DNA from: Desulfocapsa sp.
Lineage (GTDB): Bacteria > Desulfobacterota > Desulfobulbia > Desulfobulbales > Desulfocapsaceae
Assembly: GCA_029934915.1 (NCBI GenBank)
Contig: JAOZLI010000063.1
Coordinates: 1 to 10,836, forward strand
Direction: 5' to 3'
DNA: 10,836 nucleotides
A program made the position numbers and the translations under genes. How positions within the stretch are numbered: the stretch's first letter is position 1; the number at the start of each line of letters is the position of its first letter. Below, piece by piece: positions 1 through 10,836 of this stretch. The notes under the pieces were generated by a model. It did not search any database. It saw only the letters and a list, made by a program, of their open reading frames with translations, and was not told where the DNA came from.

Positions 1-13
1 AAAGGAAAATAAC

Positions 14-940
14 ATGCGAAAAAAAATAACCATCATCGGTGCCGGAAATGTAGGCGCCACTGCTGCTCACTGGGCTGCTGCCAAAAATCTCGGAAATGTA
101 GTTCTACTTGATGTTGTGGAAGGGGTACCCCAGGGAAAAGCCCTTGATCTTTCACAGGCAGGACCTGTAGAGGGCTTTCACTATAAAGTAGAGGGCAGTA
201 ATGATTATGCAGATAGTGCAAATTCAGACGTCGTTATCATTTGTGCTGGGCTTGCCAGGCAACCCGGCATGTCCCGTGATGATCTCCTTTCGAAAAATGT
301 CAGTATCGTAAAATCATGTGCAGAAGAAGCTGTGAAACATTCTCCCGACTGCTTTCTTGTGGTCGTGACCAACCCCATTGATGCCATGGTTCATACAGCA
401 TTTAAGGTAACCGGACATCCCAAGGAAAAAGTAATAGGTATGGCTGGAGTACTGGATTCTGCCAGATATCGTACCTTTTTAGCACAAGCTATAGGTGTTG
501 CTCCCAAGGATGTGAATGCCCTGGTTATGGGAATCCATGGTGATAATATGATGCCCATGGTTCGTCTTGCCAATGTTGCAGGCGTTCCTATCACCGATTT
601 GCTTTCTAAAGAAGAGATTGATGCAATCGTGCACAGAACTCAGACAGGTGGTCTTGAGATCGTGAATCACCTGAAAACCGGATCCGCTTTTTATACACCT
701 GGCCTTGCTGCCGTGGAAATGGCTGAAGCAGTACTTACCGATTCCAAACGTGTGCTTCCCTGTGCAGCGTATCTTGAAGGAGAGTTTGGTGTGTCCGGCT
801 ATTTTCTCGGTGTTCCTGTTGTGCTGGGAGAGAAGGGTGTAGAAAAAATCCTCGAATTTGAACTCACCGACGAAGAAAAAGAGTCCTTACAGCTCTCTGT
901 GCAGGCCGTTGAGAAACAGATGCAGGCCACTGGACTGTAG
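14..940 (+). CDS. mdh: Malate dehydrogenase (NAD-dependent, LDH-like type)
   Basis: This cytosolic enzyme interconverts malate and oxaloacetate with NAD(H). The 308-residue length is normal for the LDH-like malate dehydrogenases. The N-terminal Rossmann loop GAGNVG lies at residues 9-14, and Asp33 at the end of the second strand is the usual NAD-selecting acid. The substrate loop carries Arg82 and Arg88 (ARQPGMSRDDLL), where Arg82 is the dehydrogenase signature that selects malate over lactate. Asn120 is in TNPID, and the catalytic Asp148/His175 pair is in LDSARYR and GIHGDN, with Arg151 binding the carboxylate. The ATG is preceded by AAGGAA at 2-7 with a 6-nt spacer, so the start is secure. 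The stop codon overlaps the ribosome binding site of the next gene, which points to cotranscription and coupled translation. All catalytic residues are present. The promoter must lie upstream of the window. Confidence 0.97.
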   Translation: MRKKITIIGAGNVGATAAHWAAAKNLGNVVLLDVVEGVPQGKALDLSQAGPVEGFHYKVEGSNDYADSANSDVVIICAGLARQPGMSRDDLLSKNVSIVKSCAEEAVKHSPDCFLVVVTNPIDAMVHTAFKVTGHPKEKVIGMAGVLDSARYRTFLAQAIGVAPKDVNALVMGIHGDNMMPMVRLANVAGVPITDLLSKEEIDAIVHRTQTGGLEIVNHLKTGSAFYTPGLAAVEMAEAVLTDSKRVLPCAAYLEGEFGVSGYFLGVPVVLGEKGVEKILEFELTDEEKESLQLSVQAVEKQMQATGL

Positions 941-949
941 GAACTTTTT

Positions 950-3271
950 GTGGCTGGTGCAAAGGAAAGCAGACAGGAACAAGAGTTAGGGGTATCTGCA
1001 AGTTTAGGACAGGCAAGGGGGATACAACTGTCTCCTCTGGATCTTCTTCCTCATAAGGATTTACGGGAAAAACTTGTGGAGTTGGCGCTCACTGGTGTGC
1101 CTGGCGGGCTTCCTCCTGAAACCACAGCAAGTCTTCAACAGATAAAGGATGCTCTGGCACGGGAACCCGTGTCGGAGTTGAAGGTAGTTGTTTTTGGTGG
1201 CGGTACCGGGTTGTCTACGATTATTGGTGGCGATAGTCGGGCGCCGTCTTGGACATCAGATCCTTTTTCCGGTTTGAAGAATCTTTTTCCTAAAACAAGT
1301 TCTATTGTCTGCATTACTGATGATGGTGGGTCCACCGGTGAGTTGTTAAAGGATCTGCCTCTTATTGCTCTTGGCGATATTCGCCATGTGCTTCTCTCTT
1401 CTATTCAACTGGCCAAACTTCAGGATTGGTACGGGTTGTCAATATCTGAAGCACGCCGATGTGTTAAAACTCTGGCTGTTATTTTTAACTATCGTTTCCA
1501 ATCGAAGCCCAAAAGCCCGGAACAATTAAGTTATGATTGCGGGCTGCAAAAACAGAACAGCCTTCCCTCTGTCATAGCAGATCTCCTTGAAAAAGGAATT
1601 GAGCATATATTTAATGACCCACGGTTACGAGTAACGTTAAATAAAAGCCATTGTCTTGGCAATCTGCTTTTGGCATCCTCTGTTTACGAACAAATCCCCT
1701 TACATTACAGCAGCGAAGATTTAATGCAGAAGCAGGATATGCTTCGCCAGAATCTTCATCGGGGTATAAGTTCATATTGTGTTATGCTTGGTGCCGATGA
1801 ACATGCAGTTCTGCCTTGTACCACTGTTTCAGCCGAGTTAAGCGTCCGCTATACAAATGGTGTTCAGGTCACTGGTGAAAATAAATCGGGTGAGGCCCGT
1901 CGTCATTGCCCGGTTGAATATGTTAGTGTGAATTTTAATGAAAAACCGGTTTTGTCTTCTACGATTGAAACTCTGATTTCTGCTGCTGACATAATGATCC
2001 TGGCTCCTGGTAGCCTCTATACTTCACTTATTCCAGTTTTTCAGGTACCCGGAATTGCAGAGGCTGTGAAGAAAAATGACAAGGCATTGAAAATACTGGT
2101 TTCGAATCTCTGGGTGCAGGCAGGTGAAACTGATTTCAGTATTTCAGAGCCAGATAGGAAATTTCATCTTTCTGACTTGTTACAGGCGTATGAGCATAAT
2201 ATCCCTGGCGGAACTGAAGGCCTTTTCGACAAAGTTCTCTGTCTCTCTTTTAAGGATGTGCCCGCATCTGTGATCCAAAACTATGCCGTTGAAGGGAAAA
2301 TCCCGATTTATCTTGACCGGGAAAGGGTGCGGGAACAAGGGGTAATTCCTTGGGAATGTAGTATATATTCAGTTGCAGCCCTGCGTGATTTTGGCATTAT
2401 TCGACATGACCCACAACAGTTTGCAAATGTTATCAGAACGTTGTGGGCAAGTTTTATTCATCTTCCAGCTACAACAAAACCTTCACCATATCTTGGAAAT
2501 GGTAAAGCCTGGAATGATAAACATCAGACCAATATGATGATGCCCTGTCTGCGTCATCAAAAGATAGAAAAATATCTGTCTGAGCTGTCTATCCATCTTG
2601 AAACGCAGTCAAAGGAGTTTGTGCAAAAGGTATGCAACAGCCTACAGCGAATTCTATGGAATCACAGAGATATACCCTTTGAGCATTTAAGCTTTGTCAA
2701 AGGGGTACAGGGTATTGCCACCGAGGAATGGAAGCGAAATCAAAACTGGGATAAGGTGTATTCGTTCTATGATCCCAACGATTCCTGTGTGAAAATAAGA
2801 CAGGATCAATTTGATTCGGAACGCAGTTTTGAAATAGCCTTTCTGGTTGCCCTGGGGCAATCATTACTTGGTGATTATGCAGAGAGTAAAAAGATTCTCA
2901 AGATTGATCCCGGGTTCCCGCAACTTGGAAAAGTATATCATCTCAGGTTAAAACAATCTGAAGATATGTGTTGTTATTTCTCTCCAAAAAATCTTGCAGA
3001 ATTCTTGCAACTTTCCCGTATGGTTCAGGCACCTGACAATCCAAAACATTTTACCCGTGTGGTAAATGGAAACGAAGGTTTTACTCCACCCGGCCTCCTC
3101 TTTGGCCTCATCTACGCATGGTATCTTGATAATCGCTTTGCCTCCAATATTGAATATAAAATGGCGGTTATCCGAATAGATCGTTCAGATCTCATTCCAG
3201 AGCAGGTTCGTATGAGGAATCGCAGAAAAAAACTTACCGATTTTTTCCGTGAGATTGTTTTTGGTTATTGA
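950..3271 (+). CDS. Large CofD/YvcK-family protein with long C-terminal extension
   Basis: The first half belongs to the CofD/YvcK (UPF0052) fold, which includes 2-phospho-L-lactate transferase CofD and the UDP-sugar-binding gluconeogenesis factor YvcK. Visible motifs are GGGTGLS (83-89), ITDDGGSTGELLKDLP (122-137), the GNLLLA segment (237-242) and LAPGSLYTSLIP (351-362). The family is usually about 300-450 residues; this protein has 773. It has about 75 extra N-terminal residues, and from about residue 500 onward a domain I do not recognise, with no membrane segment or signal peptide. The start is GTG at 950, with AGGA (939-942) overlapping the mdh stop codon and a 7-nt spacer, so translation is probably coupled to mdh. 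Nothing for F420 synthesis lies nearby, so a YvcK-like role in carbon metabolism or envelope precursor control is the likelier guess. The family is firm; the exact function is unknown. Confidence 0.85.
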   Translation: MAGAKESRQEQELGVSASLGQARGIQLSPLDLLPHKDLREKLVELALTGVPGGLPPETTASLQQIKDALAREPVSELKVVVFGGGTGLSTIIGGDSRAPSWTSDPFSGLKNLFPKTSSIVCITDDGGSTGELLKDLPLIALGDIRHVLLSSIQLAKLQDWYGLSISEARRCVKTLAVIFNYRFQSKPKSPEQLSYDCGLQKQNSLPSVIADLLEKGIEHIFNDPRLRVTLNKSHCLGNLLLASSVYEQIPLHYSSEDLMQKQDMLRQNLHRGISSYCVMLGADEHAVLPCTTVSAELSVRYTNGVQVTGENKSGEARRHCPVEYVSVNFNEKPVLSSTIETLISAADIMILAPGSLYTSLIPVFQVPGIAEAVKKNDKALKILVSNLWVQAGETDFSISEPDRKFHLSDLLQAYEHNIPGGTEGLFDKVLCLSFKDVPASVIQNYAVEGKIPIYLDRERVREQGVIPWECSIYSVAALRDFGIIRHDPQQFANVIRTLWASFIHLPATTKPSPYLGNGKAWNDKHQTNMMMPCLRHQKIEKYLSELSIHLETQSKEFVQKVCNSLQRILWNHRDIPFEHLSFVKGVQGIATEEWKRNQNWDKVYSFYDPNDSCVKIRQDQFDSERSFEIAFLVALGQSLLGDYAESKKILKIDPGFPQLGKVYHLRLKQSEDMCCYFSPKNLAEFLQLSRMVQAPDNPKHFTRVVNGNEGFTPPGLLFGLIYAWYLDNRFASNIEYKMAVIRIDRSDLIPEQVRMRNRRKKLTDFFREIVFGY

Positions 3272-3276
3272 GGGCC

Positions 3277-3426
3277 TGTTTAAAAGTAACTGCACCAATT
3301 TAATTGCCTTTTTACCCATCCGCTTCGTTACGCAAGCAGTTACATCGCGCTGCTATACTTCTGTTTGTGTGCTCAGTAGTGGAAAAAAACCCTGCCTAAA
3401 CCTACTACACTTATTTGTTTAAAAGT
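3277..3426. repeat. 139-bp segment bounded by 11-bp direct repeats (possible small inserted element)
   Basis: TGTTTAAAAGT occurs at 3277-3287 and again, identically, at 3416-3426. Between the copies is non-coding sequence with an 8-bp perfect inverted repeat, GTAACTGC (3286-3293) and GCAGTTAC (3336-3343), and smaller palindromic stretches such as GCTTCGTTACGCAAGC (3322-3337). I see no reading frame and no clear terminal inverted repeats. Removing one copy plus the intervening bases would place the MltF-like start 34 nt after the stop of the CofD-like gene, a normal operon spacing. This suggests a late insertion or a dispersed intergenic repeat, but no second copy exists in the window to prove it. 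It could instead be an ordinary leader. Confidence 0.4.
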
Positions 3427-3444
3427 CCTGAGAGGAAAATCCCA

Positions 3445-5004
3445 TTGGATAAGAAATCATCTGTTTTTGTTGCGATAACAGTTTGTGTCATTGTTGCATT
3501 ATTCTATAATTTTCGGCCCTCTGCTCAAAATGAAGAGAACACTTCCCACGTGCCAACAGCGCCTGCCATAGTTGAAGAAAGCAATCCTTCACCAGAAGAG
3601 AAAAGTTCGGAAATCCAGCAACCATTTGAAGATGATATATGGAGTCATAATATCTGGTTCGGCGATTATTCTGATATGGTTAATCGCAGGATCATACGGG
3701 TTCTTGTACCGCCTGGAAAGACATTTTTTTTTCTTGATAAGGGACAAAAACGAGGGCTGACCTATGATAATATGATGGCCTTCGAAAAATACATAAATAG
3801 TCATTTAAAGAGTAAACATATGCAGGTGAAGGTGGTGGTCATTCCTACTTCACGAGATCGTCTGCTTCCATATTTACAACAGGGCTATGGAGATATTGCT
3901 GCCGGGAATCTTACCATAACGCCTGATCGTCTGGAATACGTAGATTTCACCAATCCGCTTCTGAAAAATGTTGAGGAAATTGTGGTAAGTTCTGCAAAAA
4001 TACCAACATTAAATTCTCTTTTTGATCTCTCAGGTACCGAAATCTACGTCAGAAAATCAAGCAGCTATTACCAATCCCTTCTCAGTCTGAATAACACCCT
4101 TGTATCCCTTGGAAAAGAACCCGTTCGTCTTAATCTGGTTGATGAATATTTAGAGGATGAAGATCTGCTGGAGATGGTGAATACCGGGTTGATTCCCATG
4201 ATTGTTATGGATAGCCATAAAGCAAGATTCTGGGAGAAAATATTCCCTGATATTAAGTTGCAACGCAAAGTGAAATTGCGACTAAATGGTGAAATTGCTT
4301 TTGCAGTAAGAAAAGATTCCCCAGAGTTGGTGCATGTCTTGAACGATTTTGTAAAGGAAAACAAAAAAGGCACCCTGATGGGTAATATGCTGTTTCGGAA
4401 ATATTTGGAAAACAGCAATTATATTAAAAATAACCTCAGTGATGCTTCCAGAAAAAAATATACCCAGAATGTTGAATTATTTCAAAAATATGGTCGTCAG
4501 TATGACTTTCCTCATCTTTTACTTGTTGCTCTGGCATTTCAGGAATCTGGTCTTGAGCACAGTAGACGCAGTAACGCCGGGGCCATTGGTATTATGCAGA
4601 TTCTTCCACGAACTGCAGCAGATAAAAATGTTAATATACAAAACATCACCCAACTGGAAAATAATATTCATGCCGGGGCAAAATATTTACGTTTCCTGCA
4701 AAACAGGTATTTTTCCAATGATGATATGGATGAGCTCAATAGCCATCTGTTTGCTATCGCAGCCTATAATGCAGGTCCCGCCAGAATTGCGAAACTGAGA
4801 AAAGAGGCGGAGAAAAAAGGTTTTGACCCAAATATCTGGTTTAATAATGTGGAAGTTATCGCATCTGTACGAATAGGGCGAGAAACTGTGCAATATGTTG
4901 GTAATATCTATAAGTATTATATCGTGTACAAACACATTGTGAGTCAGCGTCAGGTGAAGCAAATAGGGAAGAACCTTATGCTGCAACATTATAAGGATAA
5001 ATAG
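3445..5004 (+). CDS. mltF: MltF-like lytic murein transglycosylase (solute-binding domain plus SLT domain)
   Basis: This envelope enzyme is expected to cleave the MurNAc-GlcNAc bond of peptidoglycan, leaving 1,6-anhydro-MurNAc ends. A hydrophobic segment at residues 6-21 gives membrane anchoring or export. An extracellular solute-binding (SBP_bac_3) domain follows at about 80-330, with RVLVPPG and the typical GDIAAGNLTITPDR and VDFTNPL. A family-1 SLT domain fills about 345-500, with catalytic Glu367 in FQESGL, then AGAIGIMQILP and AAYNAGPARI. At 519 residues it matches MltF in size and domain order. I chose TTG 3445 because GAGAGGA (3430-3436) lies 8 nt upstream; a TTG at 3415 has no comparable site. 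The N-terminus lacks a lipobox (Val precedes the only Cys), unlike the E. coli outer-membrane lipoprotein, so a signal anchor or ordinary signal peptide is more likely. The solute-binding part probably senses or modulates rather than serving a transporter, since no permease is nearby. Confidence 0.88.
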   Translation: MDKKSSVFVAITVCVIVALFYNFRPSAQNEENTSHVPTAPAIVEESNPSPEEKSSEIQQPFEDDIWSHNIWFGDYSDMVNRRIIRVLVPPGKTFFFLDKGQKRGLTYDNMMAFEKYINSHLKSKHMQVKVVVIPTSRDRLLPYLQQGYGDIAAGNLTITPDRLEYVDFTNPLLKNVEEIVVSSAKIPTLNSLFDLSGTEIYVRKSSSYYQSLLSLNNTLVSLGKEPVRLNLVDEYLEDEDLLEMVNTGLIPMIVMDSHKARFWEKIFPDIKLQRKVKLRLNGEIAFAVRKDSPELVHVLNDFVKENKKGTLMGNMLFRKYLENSNYIKNNLSDASRKKYTQNVELFQKYGRQYDFPHLLLVALAFQESGLEHSRRSNAGAIGIMQILPRTAADKNVNIQNITQLENNIHAGAKYLRFLQNRYFSNDDMDELNSHLFAIAAYNAGPARIAKLRKEAEKKGFDPNIWFNNVEVIASVRIGRETVQYVGNIYKYYIVYKHIVSQRQVKQIGKNLMLQHYKDK

Positions 5005-5386
5005 GGGGCGCATTATCTAGATAAAAAAAGTGTGGACGTGCAGGTACCGTGCTTTTTGTCATTCTTGTTATCCTTCAATTCTGCACTTGCGATTTCCAGA
5101 CCATCACCAATGTTAACGATTCTGCTGGTGAAATAAGTAATGCTAGTACTTTAGTGGCAAATCGTGCAGAAACGCTGATTTAATTCAGTATTGTCCCGTT
5201 AAGAATTCGAAGTCTACGCTATCTGCAAGAGGGGTTGAGGCTTGCTCCAGTCAGCGTATTCTGGAAGTTTCGTAGTATTGTCTCACCAAAGTATTGACAA
5301 GAGATTGTATGCCTAAGTTATTTCTTACCGAGCCCTTTGCCTGAAATCTTTACTTAAATAGTTTAGTAATCATTCTTCGTTCTTTC
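5005..5386. other. Intergenic stretch without a convincing gene
   Basis: About 380 bases follow the transglycosylase gene. No tRNA, CRISPR repeat or strong rho-independent terminator is visible. The only protein-like item is a short frame at 5049-5183, described separately. A perfect TTGACA occurs at 5294-5299, but the bases 17-18 nt downstream (TTATTT) are a poor -10. The rest looks like unconstrained AT-rich sequence or a decayed gene. Confidence 0.5.
5049..5183 (+). CDS. Doubtful 44-residue frame with a hydrophobic N-terminus
   Basis: From a GTG at 5049 the frame encodes 44 residues. It begins with a hydrophobic run (VLFVILVILQFCTC), followed by a polar tail containing NDSAGEIS and ends at TAA 5181. 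The composition resembles a small exported or lipoprotein-like peptide, but Cys12 has no proper lipobox before it, there is no good ribosome binding site, and the frame opens upstream only to a TAA at 5022. It may be a gene remnant or chance. I do not recognise it. Confidence 0.15.
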   Translation: MLFVILVILQFCTCDFQTITNVNDSAGEISNASTLVANRAETLI

Positions 5387-5414
5387 TTGCTATCACAAAA
5401 AATTGCGTTATAGT
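5387..5414 (+). promoter_or_regulatory. Candidate sigma-70 promoter for the 112-residue protein gene
   Basis: TTGCTA (5387-5392) and TATAGT (5409-5414) are separated by 16 nt and lie about 70 nt before the start at 5484. A 16-nt spacer is slightly short, but both boxes are close to consensus. The gene sits alone after nearly 480 non-coding bases, so it needs its own promoter somewhere here. No operator palindrome is evident. Confidence 0.45.
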
Positions 5415-5483
5415 ATCTCTATGTGTTAATTATTTCGCAAACAGACATTGTGTAGAAATATTGATTAGAGCAGGAGGCTGACG

Positions 5484-5822
5484 ATGATACAGCAAGCAAC
5501 CGCAGCAGCATTACAAAGCAGTTTACAAACGTATGGAAAGAGTTCAACACCTGAAGGTGATTCTGCTAGCAGGACGCAAGACAGGTTGCAGCAACAAGAT
5601 AGCCAAACCAGCCAGTCTTCACCTGACGTGGTAACTAATTTTTCAGCAGCTGGCCTGGAAGCCGCCCGTACTCTAACCCAGCCGACAGAGGTTTCTTCTC
5701 AAGAACAAACTGAAGAGAGAACCGGTGAGACGGAGCTTCTTGAGTCCTCGGTTAAAGAACAGCAAGAAATACTCAGACAGAGTGAACAAGCACAGTCTGG
5801 GAGTGTTGACTTAATGGCTTGA
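5484..5822 (+). CDS. Small hydrophilic Gln/Ser/Glu-rich protein, unknown function
   Basis: This 112-residue protein has no signal peptide, membrane segment or cysteine. It is unusually rich in Gln, Ser, Thr and Glu. The start resembles a short amphipathic helix (MIQQATAAALQSSLQTYG), the middle is polar and probably disordered, FSAAGLEAARTL forms a second likely helix at about 53-64, and the C-terminal third is acidic and helical. The ATG follows AGGAGG (5472-5477) with a 6-nt spacer, one of the best ribosome binding sites in the window, which supports real expression. It stands alone between two long non-coding stretches. I do not recognise a family. The composition would suit a soluble chaperone-like, secreted or structure-associated protein, but nothing in the sequence decides between these. 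Confidence 0.7.
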   Translation: MIQQATAAALQSSLQTYGKSSTPEGDSASRTQDRLQQQDSQTSQSSPDVVTNFSAAGLEAARTLTQPTEVSSQEQTEERTGETELLESSVKEQQEILRQSEQAQSGSVDLMA

Positions 5823-6200
5823 TTTTAGATGTCAGGGGATTGGAAACGGAACATGCTGTTTGCCTTGGGTTTCCTCTGATGTTCGTAAGTGAATTAACTC
5901 ATACGTAAGCACTGTCTATTACAAGAGTACGAATAGTATCTTTACGGACCGCTTTTCATAGTAATGCGGGCTTGAGTTTCGTATTCCTGGAAGTCCAGAT
6001 TTAACCGAGCAGCCCCCCCTTTTTTGAGCCAATTAAAAGAGTTTTTTCACCCGCTGAAGCAAAAAACCAGACATCCTCTCTCTGCAGTACAATTCCTGAA
6101 ACTGTATTGTTCATACTTGTGCCATCCGACAGAAGCAGGGAAAACCGGGGCAGGGTGCCAAGTATATTAGAACCCAACCTATTTATAGCTTGCAGACATA
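5823..6200. other. Intergenic stretch without a supported gene
   Basis: Nearly 380 bases separate the small polar protein gene from the exported coiled-coil protein gene. A homopolymer junction (a run of C followed by a run of T) lies near 6013-6025. A minus-strand frame open through 6001-6231 has only a TTG start inside the next gene and no ribosome binding site, so I do not call it. No clear terminator, tRNA or repeat array is visible. The promoter of the 6219 gene should be here, but I cannot fix its boxes. Confidence 0.5.
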
Positions 6201-6218
6201 TTGAACGGAAATGAGACC

Positions 6219-6767
6219 ATGAAAAAAACAATGATTCTTTCCTATCTTATTACCGCTTGTTGCGTTGCATTTTTTTGTACCATTTCAAACGCAGGTCAAT
6301 CTGGTAAAGCTATGGGTGCTGGAGGGAAAACAGCAACAGCAAGTTCAGATGCTGCCAGGATTTATCGTTCAACGATGGCAGGAGCAGGTGCACTCACTGT
6401 CCCTATGCTTAAACAGTGTCTGCGACTGGATAAAAAAGTCGCATCGGCAGACTCACGACTCTCTGAGTTGGATGCCGCAATGGCTTCTATAGAGTCTGAC
6501 ATTGAGCAACTTAATGCTTATATCGATATCAATTCCGATAAGGTCGATACCACCAGCCAGAAAGCTGTCGATATGTTCAATGCTAAAATTAATCAACATT
6601 CAAGCAAGATTAACGAATATAATGAACAGATTTTTAAACGAAAGAGTTATTATGGCGTTTATAAAAAATTATATACCACGTTTAAACAAGAATGCGCAAA
6701 CGAAGAATATTACGAAGATGATTACCGGAGGGCAGTCAAAAAAGTCGGTTATGGTATTAGCAGATAA
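6219..6767 (+). CDS. Exported coiled-coil protein of an uncharacterised family
   Basis: This 182-residue protein starts with a Sec signal peptide: MKKT, a hydrophobic core to about residue 22, and a likely signal peptidase I site after SNA (residue 25). An ITAC at 11-14 resembles a lipobox, but hydrophobic residues continue after that Cys, so lipoprotein processing is less likely. The mature part has a Gly/Ala/Ser-rich stretch, then a long heptad-like helix at about residues 65-150. Two cysteines bracket this helix (in MLKQCLRL and FKQECANEEYYEDDY) and could form a disulfide closing a helical hairpin. Secreted proteins with a conserved Cys, repeated Asn/Tyr-rich heptads and a terminal C-x-Y-x-D element are familiar, but I know no function for them. 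ATG 6219 is preferred over the in-frame TTG 6201 because it begins a textbook signal peptide. The gene converges on pqiB with only 14 nt between stop codons. Confidence 0.8.
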   Translation: MKKTMILSYLITACCVAFFCTISNAGQSGKAMGAGGKTATASSDAARIYRSTMAGAGALTVPMLKQCLRLDKKVASADSRLSELDAAMASIESDIEQLNAYIDINSDKVDTTSQKAVDMFNAKINQHSSKINEYNEQIFKRKSYYGVYKKLYTTFKQECANEEYYEDDYRRAVKKVGYGISR

Positions 6768-6781
6768 ATAGATTCTCATTG

Positions 6782-8428
6782 TTATTTATTTGTAGCTTTT
6801 GCCTTGCCCTTCAGTTGTTCAGGAATTTCCCCAAGTTCCAAAGCAGGGCTCCAATTCAGCCATGAATCATCAGGATCGTTGTTAAGGGTGAAACGATGTC
6901 CATTGGTGACCAGATTTCCCATATCATTGTCCTCAGGCGTTGAAAAGGATACGCCACCTGCAATAAGCGTCGCTAGAGATTCTGTACTTATCTTCATGGA
7001 AGTCATCAGTCCACCTTTGATTCGAAATCCTGTACTGTTCCAGAATTTAGTGTTTTCCCGGATAAGGTTAACGTAGGGTTTATGGATATTGATATAAACA
7101 AGAACCTTCTGACCGGTCGGAGAAAGTTCATAACCCGTGGTATGACCCACCTGAACCTGTCTGTAATAAATAGGCTTATTGTAGCCAAGAGAACCAAGAC
7201 GATCTGTTTCCAGGACCAGATTTAGCCCGGTTGTGACCGTCATATTAACTGGTCTGCGGGGTTGTACAAAAAAGGTGTTTGTGGCTTTCCCGGTTCCGGC
7301 TATCAGGTTTAAGTAGGGACCCGAAATGATAGTCCCAAGATTAGACACCCCACCTCCATTAAACTTAGCTCGAACAGCATAAATGTATGTGTTTTCACGA
7401 AGAAGATGGCCAAGGTTTTTGTCTATATATGCTTTAGCATATACAGTTTTAAAATCATCGCTCAGCTTAACACTATGGATGAATCCGATTTTGACGCCGT
7501 TATATTGAATTTCAGCACCCTTTGTTAATCCATTCTCCACTGAAAAAGATAAGTTAACAATAATATTTTCTGCATTTTTAGCTGTTTGCTGGTTCTCATA
7601 CAGTGGTCGTATCTTTTCAGTATCTTCCAGTGTTTTACCACCTGGTGGCGTGAAAAAACTGATACCGCCCTGTATAACTGTCTTAAGAGGATCAATGTGA
7701 AATGTAATTTTTGGAAGGTTGGCTTCGAGTTTTATGCCATCACTGATAAAAAAACGCGTACTGCTGCTCACATGATTTTTATATTTGGGATAGATCAGGA
7801 TCTTCGTTTCAATGGACGCATCGTTCTGTAAAATATTTGACACAACTTCACCAACAGCAACTTTCTTGAAATAAACAGGGGAGCCAGCTCCCAATGAGAC
7901 AGCAAGGTGTGACGTAAGTGTCAGGTGCAAACCCGGGGCACGTTCAGAAAGCGGTGGTATTTCATTAAGAGCGATAAAATGTGTGGATGGTTCCTTGGAG
8001 GTTCCAGGCTGAACTTCAAAATAACTTCCTTTGACCAGCGTTTCCAGTCCAGCAATCCGGTTAAGGGAAACTTCCGGGCGTACAATCCAAAATTTACTGT
8101 CCTTGGTCAGTTCTTCTCTGGCCTCCTTCACCATTTCTATATTTGCATTGATATGCTCAAGATCAGGACTTACAGAAAATCCTTTTAACGTTCCAACAGG
8201 AAGACCTTTGAACAATATTTTTGTTTTTCCGGCTGTAAGGCCAGAAGCATCTTTTACCTGCACGGTAATCATAAAACCGGACTCATTGTAATCCTTATAA
8301 AGGAGCCAGCCACCAAGGATGAGTGCCAGGATTGGCAGCACCCAAATGGGTGAGATACCTTTTTTTGTTTTTTCAATTGGAGTTTCCAAATTTTTTGTAC
8401 CCGGAGTAAAAGTAGTGGTTTCAGGCAT
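6782..8428 (-). CDS. pqiB: PqiB-like MCE-domain intermembrane lipid transport protein
   Basis: MCE proteins of this type form periplasmic hexameric tubes that carry lipids between inner and outer membranes, working with a PqiA/LetA-type membrane partner. The 548-residue protein has a short cytoplasmic tail, one membrane anchor (about 26-44, ISPIWVLPILALILGGWLLY) and a periplasmic remainder. Four MCE modules are visible at about 52-143, 166-264, 288-380 and 400-500, each with a VYF/IYY-type strand leading to VG and ending near GxxF. E. coli PqiB has three MCE modules plus a long helical C-terminal needle; here a fourth module replaces the needle and only about 48 residues follow. This makes it intermediate between PqiB and the seven-module LetB. 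The ATG at 8428 overlaps the preceding stop by 8 nt (ATGCCTGA), so translation is coupled. A longer upstream frame would lie wholly inside pqiA and is not credible. No pqiC lipoprotein gene follows. Confidence 0.92.
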   Translation of the reverse strand: MPETTTFTPGTKNLETPIEKTKKGISPIWVLPILALILGGWLLYKDYNESGFMITVQVKDASGLTAGKTKILFKGLPVGTLKGFSVSPDLEHINANIEMVKEAREELTKDSKFWIVRPEVSLNRIAGLETLVKGSYFEVQPGTSKEPSTHFIALNEIPPLSERAPGLHLTLTSHLAVSLGAGSPVYFKKVAVGEVVSNILQNDASIETKILIYPKYKNHVSSSTRFFISDGIKLEANLPKITFHIDPLKTVIQGGISFFTPPGGKTLEDTEKIRPLYENQQTAKNAENIIVNLSFSVENGLTKGAEIQYNGVKIGFIHSVKLSDDFKTVYAKAYIDKNLGHLLRENTYIYAVRAKFNGGGVSNLGTIISGPYLNLIAGTGKATNTFFVQPRRPVNMTVTTGLNLVLETDRLGSLGYNKPIYYRQVQVGHTTGYELSPTGQKVLVYINIHKPYVNLIRENTKFWNSTGFRIKGGLMTSMKISTESLATLIAGGVSFSTPEDNDMGNLVTNGHRFTLNNDPDDSWLNWSPALELGEIPEQLKGKAKATNK

Positions 8429-9050
8429 CCCACAGGAGCCTTGAATCAAAAGTGAGAGCTGCAAACATGGTACAGACCACAACGGCAGCAAAATAAGAAG
8501 CAGCAGGTGCCGCCTGGGTTGCTGTGAAGCTTCCAAATTCAACGAGGGTTGACATTAAGGCAATGACAAAGATATCAAGCATGGACCAGCGACCAACAAA
8601 TTCTATAAAATGAAACATCTTTGTTTTATGGCGTAGCCATCGCTTCCACTTAAATTTGATGGAAAGTAAAATGCTTATCATGCCGACAATTTTAAAGAGT
8701 GGTACAAGTATGGATGCCATAAAAATTATCAGTCCGATGCCATATTCCCCGGAGTGAAAAAAATAAATAATTCCATCCATGATGGTCGAATATTCAACAG
8801 AGCCAAATAACTCGACCTGCATGATAGGAAGGAGATTCGCGGGGGCAAATAGAATGGCCGCAGTGATAACAAGAGCCCAGGTTGTCGGGACAGATTGGTG
8901 CTTTCGAAAATGTACATCTGCATTACAGCGGGAACATGCCAGATGACCATTTTGGGGAACATGCCTGCCATCCATCAGCTTGCCACAGTCATGACAGGAG
9001 ATAAGACCCGCATCCATGGCGGTTTGACGATGTGATTTATTTAGAGCCAT
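8421..9050 (-). CDS. pqiA: PqiA-like membrane protein, second (C-terminal-type) half
   Basis: Paraquat-inducible protein A proteins are inner-membrane partners of MCE tubes and are thought to load or extract lipids. This 209-residue polypeptide corresponds to one half of the usual two-domain PqiA. It starts with a cytoplasmic zinc ribbon with Cys19/Cys22 (CHDC) and Cys39/Cys42 (CSRC). Four likely membrane helices follow at about 57-78, 104-130, 154-170 and 180-198. The conserved WSMLDIFVIALMSTLVEFG follows the second helix pair. I chose ATG 9050, which overlaps the end of the upstream half by 14 nt; an alternative TTG at 9074 has no ribosome binding site. Its stop overlaps the pqiB start. The order half one, half two, PqiB fits one operon and probably one complex. 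Confidence 0.9.
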   Translation of the reverse strand: MALNKSHRQTAMDAGLISCHDCGKLMDGRHVPQNGHLACSRCNADVHFRKHQSVPTTWALVITAAILFAPANLLPIMQVELFGSVEYSTIMDGIIYFFHSGEYGIGLIIFMASILVPLFKIVGMISILLSIKFKWKRWLRHKTKMFHFIEFVGRWSMLDIFVIALMSTLVEFGSFTATQAAPAASYFAAVVVCTMFAALTFDSRLLWDA

Positions 9051-9693
9051 TACTTTTACGGTTAGAAGATGCAATTTTTAATTTATCCAGTGCCCGCCAG
9101 AAACATTCAGGGTCAAGTGCTGAAGTTGTAGCTCTGGTCATAAGAACAAGAAGAATAAAACAGAAAAATCCAATGTTATATTCTATGGAGGCCATCTTGT
9201 GTATCTTGATAATGCTCACGATAATAGCAATAAGGTAGACATCAGGCATTCCCCATTCATCGAGATGATGTGCTGTTCTAAATAGAAAAAACAGCGATTT
9301 GGAGTATAATCTAATTTTCAGTTGCAGGCTGACGGTGAAAAGGATACTAAGCCTGATGAGTGGGAAAAGAATAGAGGTGAAAAACAGCAGGATAGTCACC
9401 AGAAAATATTGCTGATTATAAAAGCATAAAAAAGCATCAAAAATTGATCCTGTTTGTTCCATTCCCATGGCATTGAGCGTGAGAAGTGGCATAAAGATAG
9501 CGGGGATGTAGAAAAGAAGGCCGGCCATGGAGATTGCCAATACCTTGGAAATACTATCAACTTTCTTTTGATAGAGTAGTGTCTGGCAACGGGGGCAAAA
9601 AAGATTTCTGCCGTTCACTGTGTGGATGTTTTGCAGGAGCAGATCACAGGCTGGACAGGCAATTTGTTGTGCAATAGCTGATTTCATGATCAT
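9037..9693 (-). CDS. pqiA: PqiA-like membrane protein, first half
   Basis: This is the first gene of the minus-strand operon, homologous to the next gene and to the N-terminal half of full-length PqiA. A zinc ribbon with Cys13/Cys16 (CPAC) and Cys33/Cys36 (CPRC) is followed by membrane helices at about 50-71, 97-123, 150-164 and 172-186. WGMPDVYLIAIIVSIIKI matches WSMLDIFVIA of its partner. In E. coli both halves are one chain of about 417 residues; here they are 218 and 209 residues and must assemble from two polypeptides. The start is uncertain: ATG 9693 and ATG 9687 are in frame, as is GTG 9708, which overlaps the only purine-rich site (AAGGG at 9712-9708). I give ATG 9693. It is transcribed away from the YkgJ-family gene, sharing a short divergent promoter region. 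Confidence 0.88.
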   Translation of the reverse strand: MIMKSAIAQQIACPACDLLLQNIHTVNGRNLFCPRCQTLLYQKKVDSISKVLAISMAGLLFYIPAIFMPLLTLNAMGMEQTGSIFDAFLCFYNQQYFLVTILLFFTSILFPLIRLSILFTVSLQLKIRLYSKSLFFLFRTAHHLDEWGMPDVYLIAIIVSIIKIHKMASIEYNIGFFCFILLVLMTRATTSALDPECFWRALDKLKIASSNRKSNGSK

Positions 9694-9750
9694 GTATTGA
9701 TAGCACACCCTTAGGAACTGGTAAAGAATAACATGTGATTTACCCGTTCA

Positions 9751-9778
9751 TTAATATAAAGAGAAGATTTATTAGCAA
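9751..9778 (-). promoter_or_regulatory. Candidate sigma-70 promoter for the pqi operon
   Basis: On the minus strand TTGCTA (9778-9773) is followed after 16 nt by TATTAA (9756-9751), about 55 nt before the first pqiA start. The divergent intergenic region is only 85 bp, so the promoters of the pqi operon and of the YkgJ-family gene must be close or overlapping. The layout matches the TTGCTA/16-nt candidate at 5387. No SoxS-type or other operator is recognisable. Confidence 0.35.
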
Positions 9779-10471
9779 ATGACTCAAAGCAAAAATAAAA
9801 TTAAGACCCAAAGTCAACAGACATCTTGCACGCAATGTGGGATATGCTGCACAAAAGGAGGAGCTGCCTTTCATGGTGCAGATTTACCCTTGTTATTGGA
9901 ACAGCAAGTTCCATGGCGTAATCTTATTACGCTCAGGGCAGGTGAGTTCGCATGGGATCCAGTGACGGAGGGTGTACAGGCTATTCAAAAAGAAATTATC
10001 AAGTTGCGTGGGAGTGGTAGTGAATGGACCTGCTGCTATTTTAATTCATCAAATAACAGTTGTGGTATATACCATAAACGTCCTATTGCCTGCAAAACAT
10101 TGCAATGCTGGAATCCTGAAGAAAGTCTCGCCCTTGCAGGGAAAGACCTTCTTAGTCGTGAGATGGTTCTACAAAATGAAACAGTTTTGCAAGGACTTGT
10201 GAAACAATACGAAACCGAATTTCCATTGCCAGATTTTAATACGCTGGAAACCGAACTGGAATCTCGATGTGAAACCTACATCACAGAGCTTGAGGAACAG
10301 GTCAATAATGATCTGATTTTTCGCGAAAGAGAAATCGCTAAGTCAAAGTTAGTTTCTGATATTGAACTTTTTCTCTTTGGCCGTCCACTGTTTCAACTTT
10401 TGCAGCCATTTGCTGTGCAAGCTTTTCAATCGGGAAACAGACTGAGGCTTCAATATATCAAACAGGGTTAA
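9779..10471 (+). CDS. YkgJ-family cysteine-cluster protein
   Basis: This 230-residue cytosolic protein belongs to the YkgJ/UPF0153 cysteine-cluster family, thought to bind a metal (zinc or an iron-sulfur cluster); its biochemical role is not established. The N-terminal signature CTQCGICC gives Cys17, 20, 23 and 24. A second cluster has Cys85-Cys86 in WTCCYF, Cys95 in NSCGIYHKRP, then Cys105 and Cys110 in IACKTLQCW. The remainder is a helical, acidic C-terminal region without cysteines except Cys163 or so (ESRCETY). The ATG at 9779 has only a weak GAGAAG (9761-9766) 12 nt upstream, but no better start precedes the cysteine motif. The gene ends 2 nt before the TusA-like selenoprotein gene, so the two are almost certainly cotranscribed, suggesting a shared part in thiol, selenol or metal chemistry. 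Confidence 0.88.
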   Translation: MTQSKNKIKTQSQQTSCTQCGICCTKGGAAFHGADLPLLLEQQVPWRNLITLRAGEFAWDPVTEGVQAIQKEIIKLRGSGSEWTCCYFNSSNNSCGIYHKRPIACKTLQCWNPEESLALAGKDLLSREMVLQNETVLQGLVKQYETEFPLPDFNTLETELESRCETYITELEEQVNNDLIFREREIAKSKLVSDIELFLFGRPLFQLLQPFAVQAFQSGNRLRLQYIKQG

Positions 10472-10473
10472 AA

Positions 10474-10695
10474 ATGAATAACGATATTATCGATTATCGC
10501 GGAGATTGTTGAAAAGGCTTTAAAGATGTGCGTGCACGTCTCAAAAAGATGTCAAGAAGTACTGAGTATCAATTTATCTGCGCTGCCGACATGGCAGGGA
10601 AGATGGATCGGGTGATCTGTCTTGCAGGTGGCATGGTTAAGCAAAAAGACGTGCTTCCTGAGGGTACTGTTATCACAGTGATGAAAGCGGAATAA
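10474..10695 (+). CDS. Candidate TusA-like selenoprotein (in-frame TGA read as selenocysteine)
   Basis: From ATG 10474 the frame runs 12 codons to TGT (Cys12), meets TGA at 10510-10512, and stays open another 60 codons to a double stop, TAATAA, at 10693. Read through, it is a 73-residue protein, the usual size of TusA/SirA-like sulfur carriers. It starts with a strand ending in DYRGDC, where the family has DxRGxxC. A helix (GFKDVRARLKKM) follows, then a strand (EYQFICAA), a second helix, and a final hairpin ending in TVITVMK. Residue 13 aligns with the catalytic cysteine, so Sec would replace it and form a Cys-Sec pair; the usual Pro after the cysteine is Lys here. AGGG (10464-10467) lies 6 nt before the ATG, which is 2 nt after the YkgJ-family stop. 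A hairpin fitting a bacterial SECIS follows the TGA. The alternative is a nonsense-mutated pseudogene, but the intact rest of the frame argues against it. Confidence 0.75.
10510..10541 (+). promoter_or_regulatory. Candidate bacterial SECIS element for UGA 10510-10512
   Basis: After the UGA, AGATGTG (10524-10530) pairs with CACGTCT (10535-10541) in a 7-bp stem with one G-U pair, closing a CGUG tetraloop. The loop G at 10532 is 20 nt past the UGA. From established knowledge, bacterial SECIS hairpins lie just downstream of the Sec codon, carry a G in the first two loop positions, and place the loop roughly 16-37 nt from the UGA to recruit SelB. All three conditions are met. The stem is coding sequence, so some pairing could be chance. 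Confidence 0.6.
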
Positions 10696-10730
10696 TAATT
10701 GAAAATGTAAATTCTACCATGAAATAACGA

Positions 10731-10826
10731 ATGAAAAATGTTACGCAAAGTTGCTGTTCCAGCGGGCTTGAAACCCTTTTCAAACAAAAGGGTAACCTAA
10801 TGGTCTCCTGGAGTTCCATGCTGTAA
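10731..10826 (+). CDS. Doubtful 31-residue frame with a vicinal cysteine pair
   Basis: ATG 10731 opens a 31-residue frame containing QSCCSSGLETL and ending at TAA 10824. It has no good ribosome binding site and contains the hairpin at 10773-10793. The Cys-Cys pair is notable next to two other cysteine/selenocysteine genes, but the frame is too short to judge and may be chance. Confidence 0.12.
   Translation: MKNVTQSCCSSGLETLFKQKGNLMVSWSSML
10773..10793. repeat. Perfect 8-bp hairpin downstream of the selenoprotein gene
   Basis: ACCCTTTT (10773-10780) and AAAAGGGT (10786-10793) form a perfect stem around a 5-nt loop, CAAAC. It is about 80 nt past the TusA-like stop. There is no U-run directly after it on either strand, so it is not a classic rho-independent terminator, but it could end or stabilise the transcript. 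A T-run occurs further on, at 10830-10835. Confidence 0.4.
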
Positions 10827-10836
10827 ATCTTTTTTG

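Follow-up and report, generated by a model that had tools for sequence, protein, structure and literature searches.

A gene of 73 codons in a 10,836-nt stretch of DNA from Desulfocapsa sp. (contig JAOZLI010000063.1, positions 1 to 10,836; here called the window) is interrupted once by TGA and almost certainly encodes a selenoprotein, with the UGA read as selenocysteine (Sec). This reading, proposed in the original prediction from the sequence alone, is supported because the TGA is conserved, a hairpin resembling a selenocysteine insertion sequence (SECIS) follows it, and the genome encodes the Sec machinery. The product is predicted to resemble the sulfur carrier TusA. Our favored explanation, to which we give a probability of about 0.55, is that it acts as a chalcogen carrier of some kind.

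The features of the gene are as follows.

10474..10695, + strand: gene for the predicted TusA-fold selenoprotein, 73 codons, codon 13 UGA read as Sec
10510..10512, + strand: in-frame TGA of the putative Sec13, the sole internal TGA, abutting the Cys12 codon TGT
10524..10541, + strand: bacterial-SECIS-like hairpin, stem 10524-10530 : 10535-10541, loop 10531-10534 (CGTG) with G at loop position 2

The frame starts at ATG 10474 and ends at TAA 10693-10695, which is abutted by a second TAA (10696-10698). The interrupted frame is real: the 73 codons, the single TGA after a Cys codon, the double stop, the 2-nt gap to the upstream gene and the ribosome binding site described in the original prediction were all confirmed from the coordinates.

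Conservation across the TGA

Genomes within the phylum were searched with a query in which Cys was substituted for Sec and any stop was tolerated. In the first search, of 56 genomes (the source genome and relatives), 20 genomes gave 27 matches, of which 26 had the TGA in frame and one (L025) lacked it. The second search covered 395 genomes and matched 26, with a single TGA in 25. The remaining one, L070, was a partial match (model 10-52) without TGA, which was judged false.

Both searches combined, TGA was found at the same column in 48 loci from 41 genomes. Because it recurs at this column in relatives, the TGA-interrupted frame is more than chance. The 48 loci were chosen by the pattern of Cys followed by TGA, and the universal Cys before the TGA in this set is by construction. 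L025/L129 (no TGA) and L070 were excluded, and L020/L141, with an extra TAA, was retained.

Members share the motif D-Y/S-R-x-x-Cys-Sec, and a conserved helix comes after it. The distribution is patchy: members were found in 14 of 20 genomes of the same genus, in 2 of 15 from elsewhere in the family, and in 4 of 21 from elsewhere in the order (L025 among these four).

Codons downstream of the TGA are under purifying selection. When the window gene was compared with 11 relatives over these codons, the ratio of nonsynonymous to synonymous substitution rates (dN/dS) was 0.07-0.35 in ten; dS was saturated in the other. With the hairpin codons removed, the pN/pS ratio was 0.27-0.57 in the 11 comparisons. 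Of the three outcomes that, by the original prediction, would count against it, none was observed; two of them were a lack of homologs conserved across the UGA and random decay downstream. Homologs were conserved through the column at the 48 loci, and an additional stop, TAA, was present in only one of them, L020.

A sister group (L025:1501-1701 in genome G050; P0029, P0030, P0031, P0032, P0034 and P0039) kept DYRxx, with Cys-Sec replaced by Thr or Ser and one other residue (Thr-Leu in L025). Are these paralogs that have lost the active pair? There is also a second subfamily with DCUWG and a start of MRKRVRI (L026, L028-L032, L024 and L047), a paralog in genomes that also hold the window type. 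Genome G008 has three family members.

SECIS-like hairpin

The hairpin has a 7-bp stem, a 4-nt loop and 18-nt spacing from the TGA, with a minimum free energy (MFE) of -9.2 in the window. This geometry agrees with the bacterial SECIS model given in section 5 of PMC13188914. The 48 stretches aligned without gaps. Columns 15-21 paired with columns 26-32, and the loop G (column 23) was invariant in 48 of 48.

Stem pairing reached 97.0% of 329 cells, versus 91.9% in shuffled and at most 66.3% in slid controls. Changes on both sides were seen at five of the seven stem pairs (27 cells in the 48-row alignment). Of five covariation measures, one did not stand above the shuffles: the number of further pair types was 10, versus 9.0 (121 of 500).

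Since the stem overlaps conserved codons, a synonymous-codon null was used, in which codons were resampled by each locus's own usage (2000 draws). All seven standard pairs were present in 44 of 48 loci, versus a null mean of 1.23 and a maximum of 6; Watson-Crick pairs numbered 277 of 336, versus 134.5 (sd 7.5). At the overlapping residue, Leu was encoded by TTA or CTA in 19 of 22 loci, versus 6.8% in neighboring genes. The full stems and the bias at Leu therefore indicate that the RNA is under selection beyond the needs of the protein. The 48 rows are interrelated, and neither the covariation nor the synonymous-codon result is to be read as a probability.

The effect on the MFE of the whole stretch was modest against synonymous shuffles: the mean z was -1.25 over the 48 loci, 16 of 48 fell below 0.05, and the window was at 0.13. 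The position-specific stem test, unlike this one, is the strong test. In L025, which lacks Sec, two of the seven hairpin pairs were broken (a single sequence). Rfam at the gathering threshold gave no match in the window.

Selenocysteine machinery

The source genome (3.06 Mb, 606 contigs, 83% complete) was examined for selA, selB, selC and selD, a lookup suggested in the original prediction, with absence of selB or selC as an argument against Sec. All four were present in the host. The tRNA-Sec gene (selC) scored 71.5 bits (cut-off 47), selA 604 bits, and selD 377 bits (G000:C454:77-1018, L042). A single in-frame TGA lies within selD, and SelD here is probably itself a selenoprotein.

The selB gene was split by a contig break into two pieces, at the end of contig C571 (L040) and the start of C496 (L038), with 55 identical nt common to the contig ends. 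Singly, the pieces scored 207.6 and 182.6 bits, under the cut-off of 242.25. Across the phylum set selA was present in 359 of 395 genomes, too widespread to inform as a co-occurrence test. No selA or selB match was found near the family loci.

Predicted TusA-like fold

AlphaFold models had predicted local distance difference test (pLDDT) values of 92.0 and 95.6. In both structure comparisons, TusA-family structures made up seven of the top eight rows. These models make it very probable that the protein has a TusA-like fold.

The CPxP motif of TusA was not found in the family, which has CUxG or CUxA with the first Cys retained. In a full-length profile alignment, whose register is uncertain, the Cys before Sec aligned with the catalytic Cys of TusA, and Sec with the Pro that follows it in CPxP. 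Sec had been predicted to occupy the catalytic Cys position itself; this alignment shifts it by one residue.

Searched by sequence, the PDB yielded two matches, both attributed to chance: an engineered protein at E 2.2e-5, in which no single stretch passed by itself, and an oxidoreductase at E 1.2.

Gene neighborhoods

The immediate locus contains two further features.

10464..10467, + strand: probable ribosome binding site AGGG, read from the sequence, within the 3' end of the upstream gene and 6 nt 5' of the ATG
9779..10471, + strand: upstream gene for a 230-aa CxxCxxCC (PF03692) protein, Pfam 30 bits versus a cut-off of 23

The upstream gene ends 2 nt before the ATG and is a probable operon partner of the selenoprotein gene. 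Elsewhere in the window, positions 950-3271 encode a protein of 773 aa in which residues 79-465 form a CofD domain; its long C-terminal part has no Pfam match (E up to 1).

Neighbors were counted at the 48 loci, in stretches cut by contig ends, and the annotated neighbors are a selection. Among window-type members, a relative of the CxxCxxCC gene was the immediate upstream neighbor at 13 of 48 loci (the window included), a convergent ferredoxin-like gene was found in 10 of 48, and the hydroxylamine reductase gene hcp in 6 of 48. Beside Hcp, we also saw a short NIR_SIR protein like the C-terminal part of NirB (L105:2288-2920) and a 208-aa Cys-rich protein without family match (L105:1646-2272).

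In 8 of 48 loci a LysR regulator was directly upstream on the same strand. The model NF040786 (selenium metabolism-associated LysR, cut-off 250 bits) was passed by all seven LysR neighbors scanned. The LysR_Se subfamily (HrsM in archaea) is described in PMC5322559 as linked to Sec genes.

Other contexts were moeA downstream (3 of 48), a molybdopterin oxidoreductase nearby (6 of 48) and cbiK nearby (7 of 48). In 4 of 48 loci, the gene immediately 3' of the DCUWG-type gene and before moeA encoded a 216-aa protein without Pfam or NCBIfam match (L125:1234-1884).

Proposed function and alternatives

In the mechanism we favor, the SelB and tRNA-Sec machinery would read the UGA at codon 13 as Sec, directed by the hairpin 18 nt downstream. 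Helix 1 would begin with the vicinal Cys-Sec pair, in the position of the sulfur-accepting Cys-Pro (CPxP) of TusA. The pair may then take sulfane sulfur or selenium as a persulfide or selenosulfide and pass the atom to a partner, as TusA does. In lineages with the adjoining selenium-metabolism LysR, the chalcogen handling would probably be selenium delivery or scavenging of reduced selenium.

At E up to 1, none of 26 members was matched by the Pfam TusA model (PF01206), which in a control detected TusA genes in all of 17 relatives. When the window hairpin was folded as a single sequence, its z against shuffles was -0.82 to -1.45 (four stretches), not significant alone. As to the description "TusA-like" in the original prediction, the predicted fold upholds it and the PF01206 model does not.

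The selenium-specific version is tentative and falls short of an even bet; it is suggested because of the LysR context in one part of the family. In its strictest form, that of a dedicated carrier that binds reduced selenium on Cys-Sec and passes it on, for example to SelD, under a selenium-sensing LysR, it seems unlikely. If this were true, selenium status would feed back on its own carrier, and the protein would bear on the question of how SelD obtains its selenium in the cell. According to PMC13188914, what donates selenium to SelD, and in which form SelD uses it, are incompletely elucidated. In Methanococcus maripaludis, TusAD transcripts are reported to rise 4.5-4.6 log2-fold under selenium depletion, which shows a link between TusA and selenium elsewhere and nothing beyond that. 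The gene may be part of selenium handling in some sediment bacteria, and a TusA-fold selenoprotein beside a selenium-linked LysR in one lineage group is a concrete, testable candidate.

The Cys-Sec pair of a TusA-fold selenoprotein might instead be a redox or metal/metalloid site, as a selenenylsulfide reductant or in binding of Hg, As or Cu, and not a chalcogen carrier. The CxxCxxCC (13/48), ferredoxin-like (10/48) and Hcp (6/48) neighbors suggest a redox and stress setting, and vicinal CU motifs occur in the metal- or mercury-related selenoproteins SaoL, HgcA and MbdU listed in Table 1 of PMC13188914. Set against this, the pair occupies the place at which sulfur is carried in the TusA family, the annotated neighbors included no identified metal-resistance gene, and the LysR_Se neighbor in another clade suggests selenium handling. 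We consider this site assignment rather unlikely, although it is the best of the alternatives.

It is improbable that the protein carries sulfur as TusA does, in molybdenum or siroheme-type cofactor metabolism, and uses Sec only incidentally. The moeA, molybdopterin oxidoreductase and cbiK neighbors would fit such a role, as would the part of TusA in molybdenum cofactor synthesis described in PMC11073785. Only a few clades show these contexts, however, and several of these genes lie outside the operon or on the other strand.

Database annotation of the family

Among the matches to three database searches, 91 distinct proteins were read. W was present at the Sec column in 43, Cys in one (P0025), and neither Cys nor Sec in six; the motif region was absent from 41, most of which begin just after the TGA. 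Named matches were from Desulfosoma, Desulfacinum, Dissulfurirhabdus, Deltaproteobacteria and Desulfatiglandaceae, and the five named contigs were assigned to Desulfobulbaceae, Desulfocapsa or plain Proteobacteria/Pseudomonadota.

The simplest explanation for the W is that a gene caller chose code 4 on short contigs. The Cys of P0025, a protein-level reading, could be an annotated Sec displayed as C. Sec is the rule in this family and the Cys form is very rare. Such rarity of the Cys form is unusual among selenoproteins.

The 41 motif-less entries would fit a TGA that serves as a normal stop or stems from mis-sequencing, with a 47-55 aa protein beginning downstream, as annotated. This is very improbable: the TGA, the DYRxDC motif 5' of it and the hairpin 3' of it are conserved jointly at 48 loci, and the shortened product would lose strand 1 together with some of helix 1. 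A reading of UGA as Trp under code 4, which the 43 proteins with W would imply, has a negligible chance, given that the Sec machinery is encoded, the other window genes examined terminate normally under table 11, and a SECIS-like hairpin would serve no purpose.

It had been predicted that gene callers would miss the gene, and the database versions indeed begin after the TGA or show W there. The family is a clean example of a conserved gene family cut short or mistranslated by annotation pipelines.

Comparison with known systems

No NCBIfam model (release 20) covers the family, as judged from 26 members. No TusA or SirA selenoprotein was found by word search in the main text of PMC13188914, a 2026 review of 119 prokaryotic selenoprotein families and subfamilies; none is named in the review's table of these families or in the deep-Sep paper, and none was found in a literature search of open-licence papers.

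The closest known proteins are TusA/SirA-like (PF01206; E. coli TusA = YhhP, PDB 1dcj, 3lvj). They have in common with this family the predicted beta-alpha-beta-alpha-beta-beta fold, a length of about 70-75 residues and a reactive Cys opening helix 1 after an xDxxG strand. Unlike the CPxP of TusA, the motif here has Sec after the Cys and Gly or Ala for the second Pro, with one residue fewer ahead of the Cys in the profile alignment.

YeeD/TsuB, the thiosulfate partner of YeeE (PDB 8k1r, 8j4c), is described as retaining CPxP and working together with YeeE, a membrane protein. Among the selection of neighbors annotated at the 48 loci, none was identified as a YeeE gene. YedF, with SirA-like and DsrE-like domains, ties a TusA-type domain to selenium utilization, as reported in PMC5322559. 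It has two domains and CPxP, with no Sec in its TusA-type domain, whereas the family here is a single domain with Cys-Sec.

Adjacent Cys-Sec is likewise found in the vicinal-CU selenoproteins of Table 1 of PMC13188914 (SaoL, SaoC, HgcA, KCU-star/DUF466 and MbdU). Judged by name, these have other folds and contexts, and none in that table is TusA-like. The DsrE-like and rhodanese-like selenoproteins of the same table are, similarly, sulfur-relay proteins with active-site Sec, but they are separate families with the Sec motifs UxxC, UxxS, UxxG and CxU.
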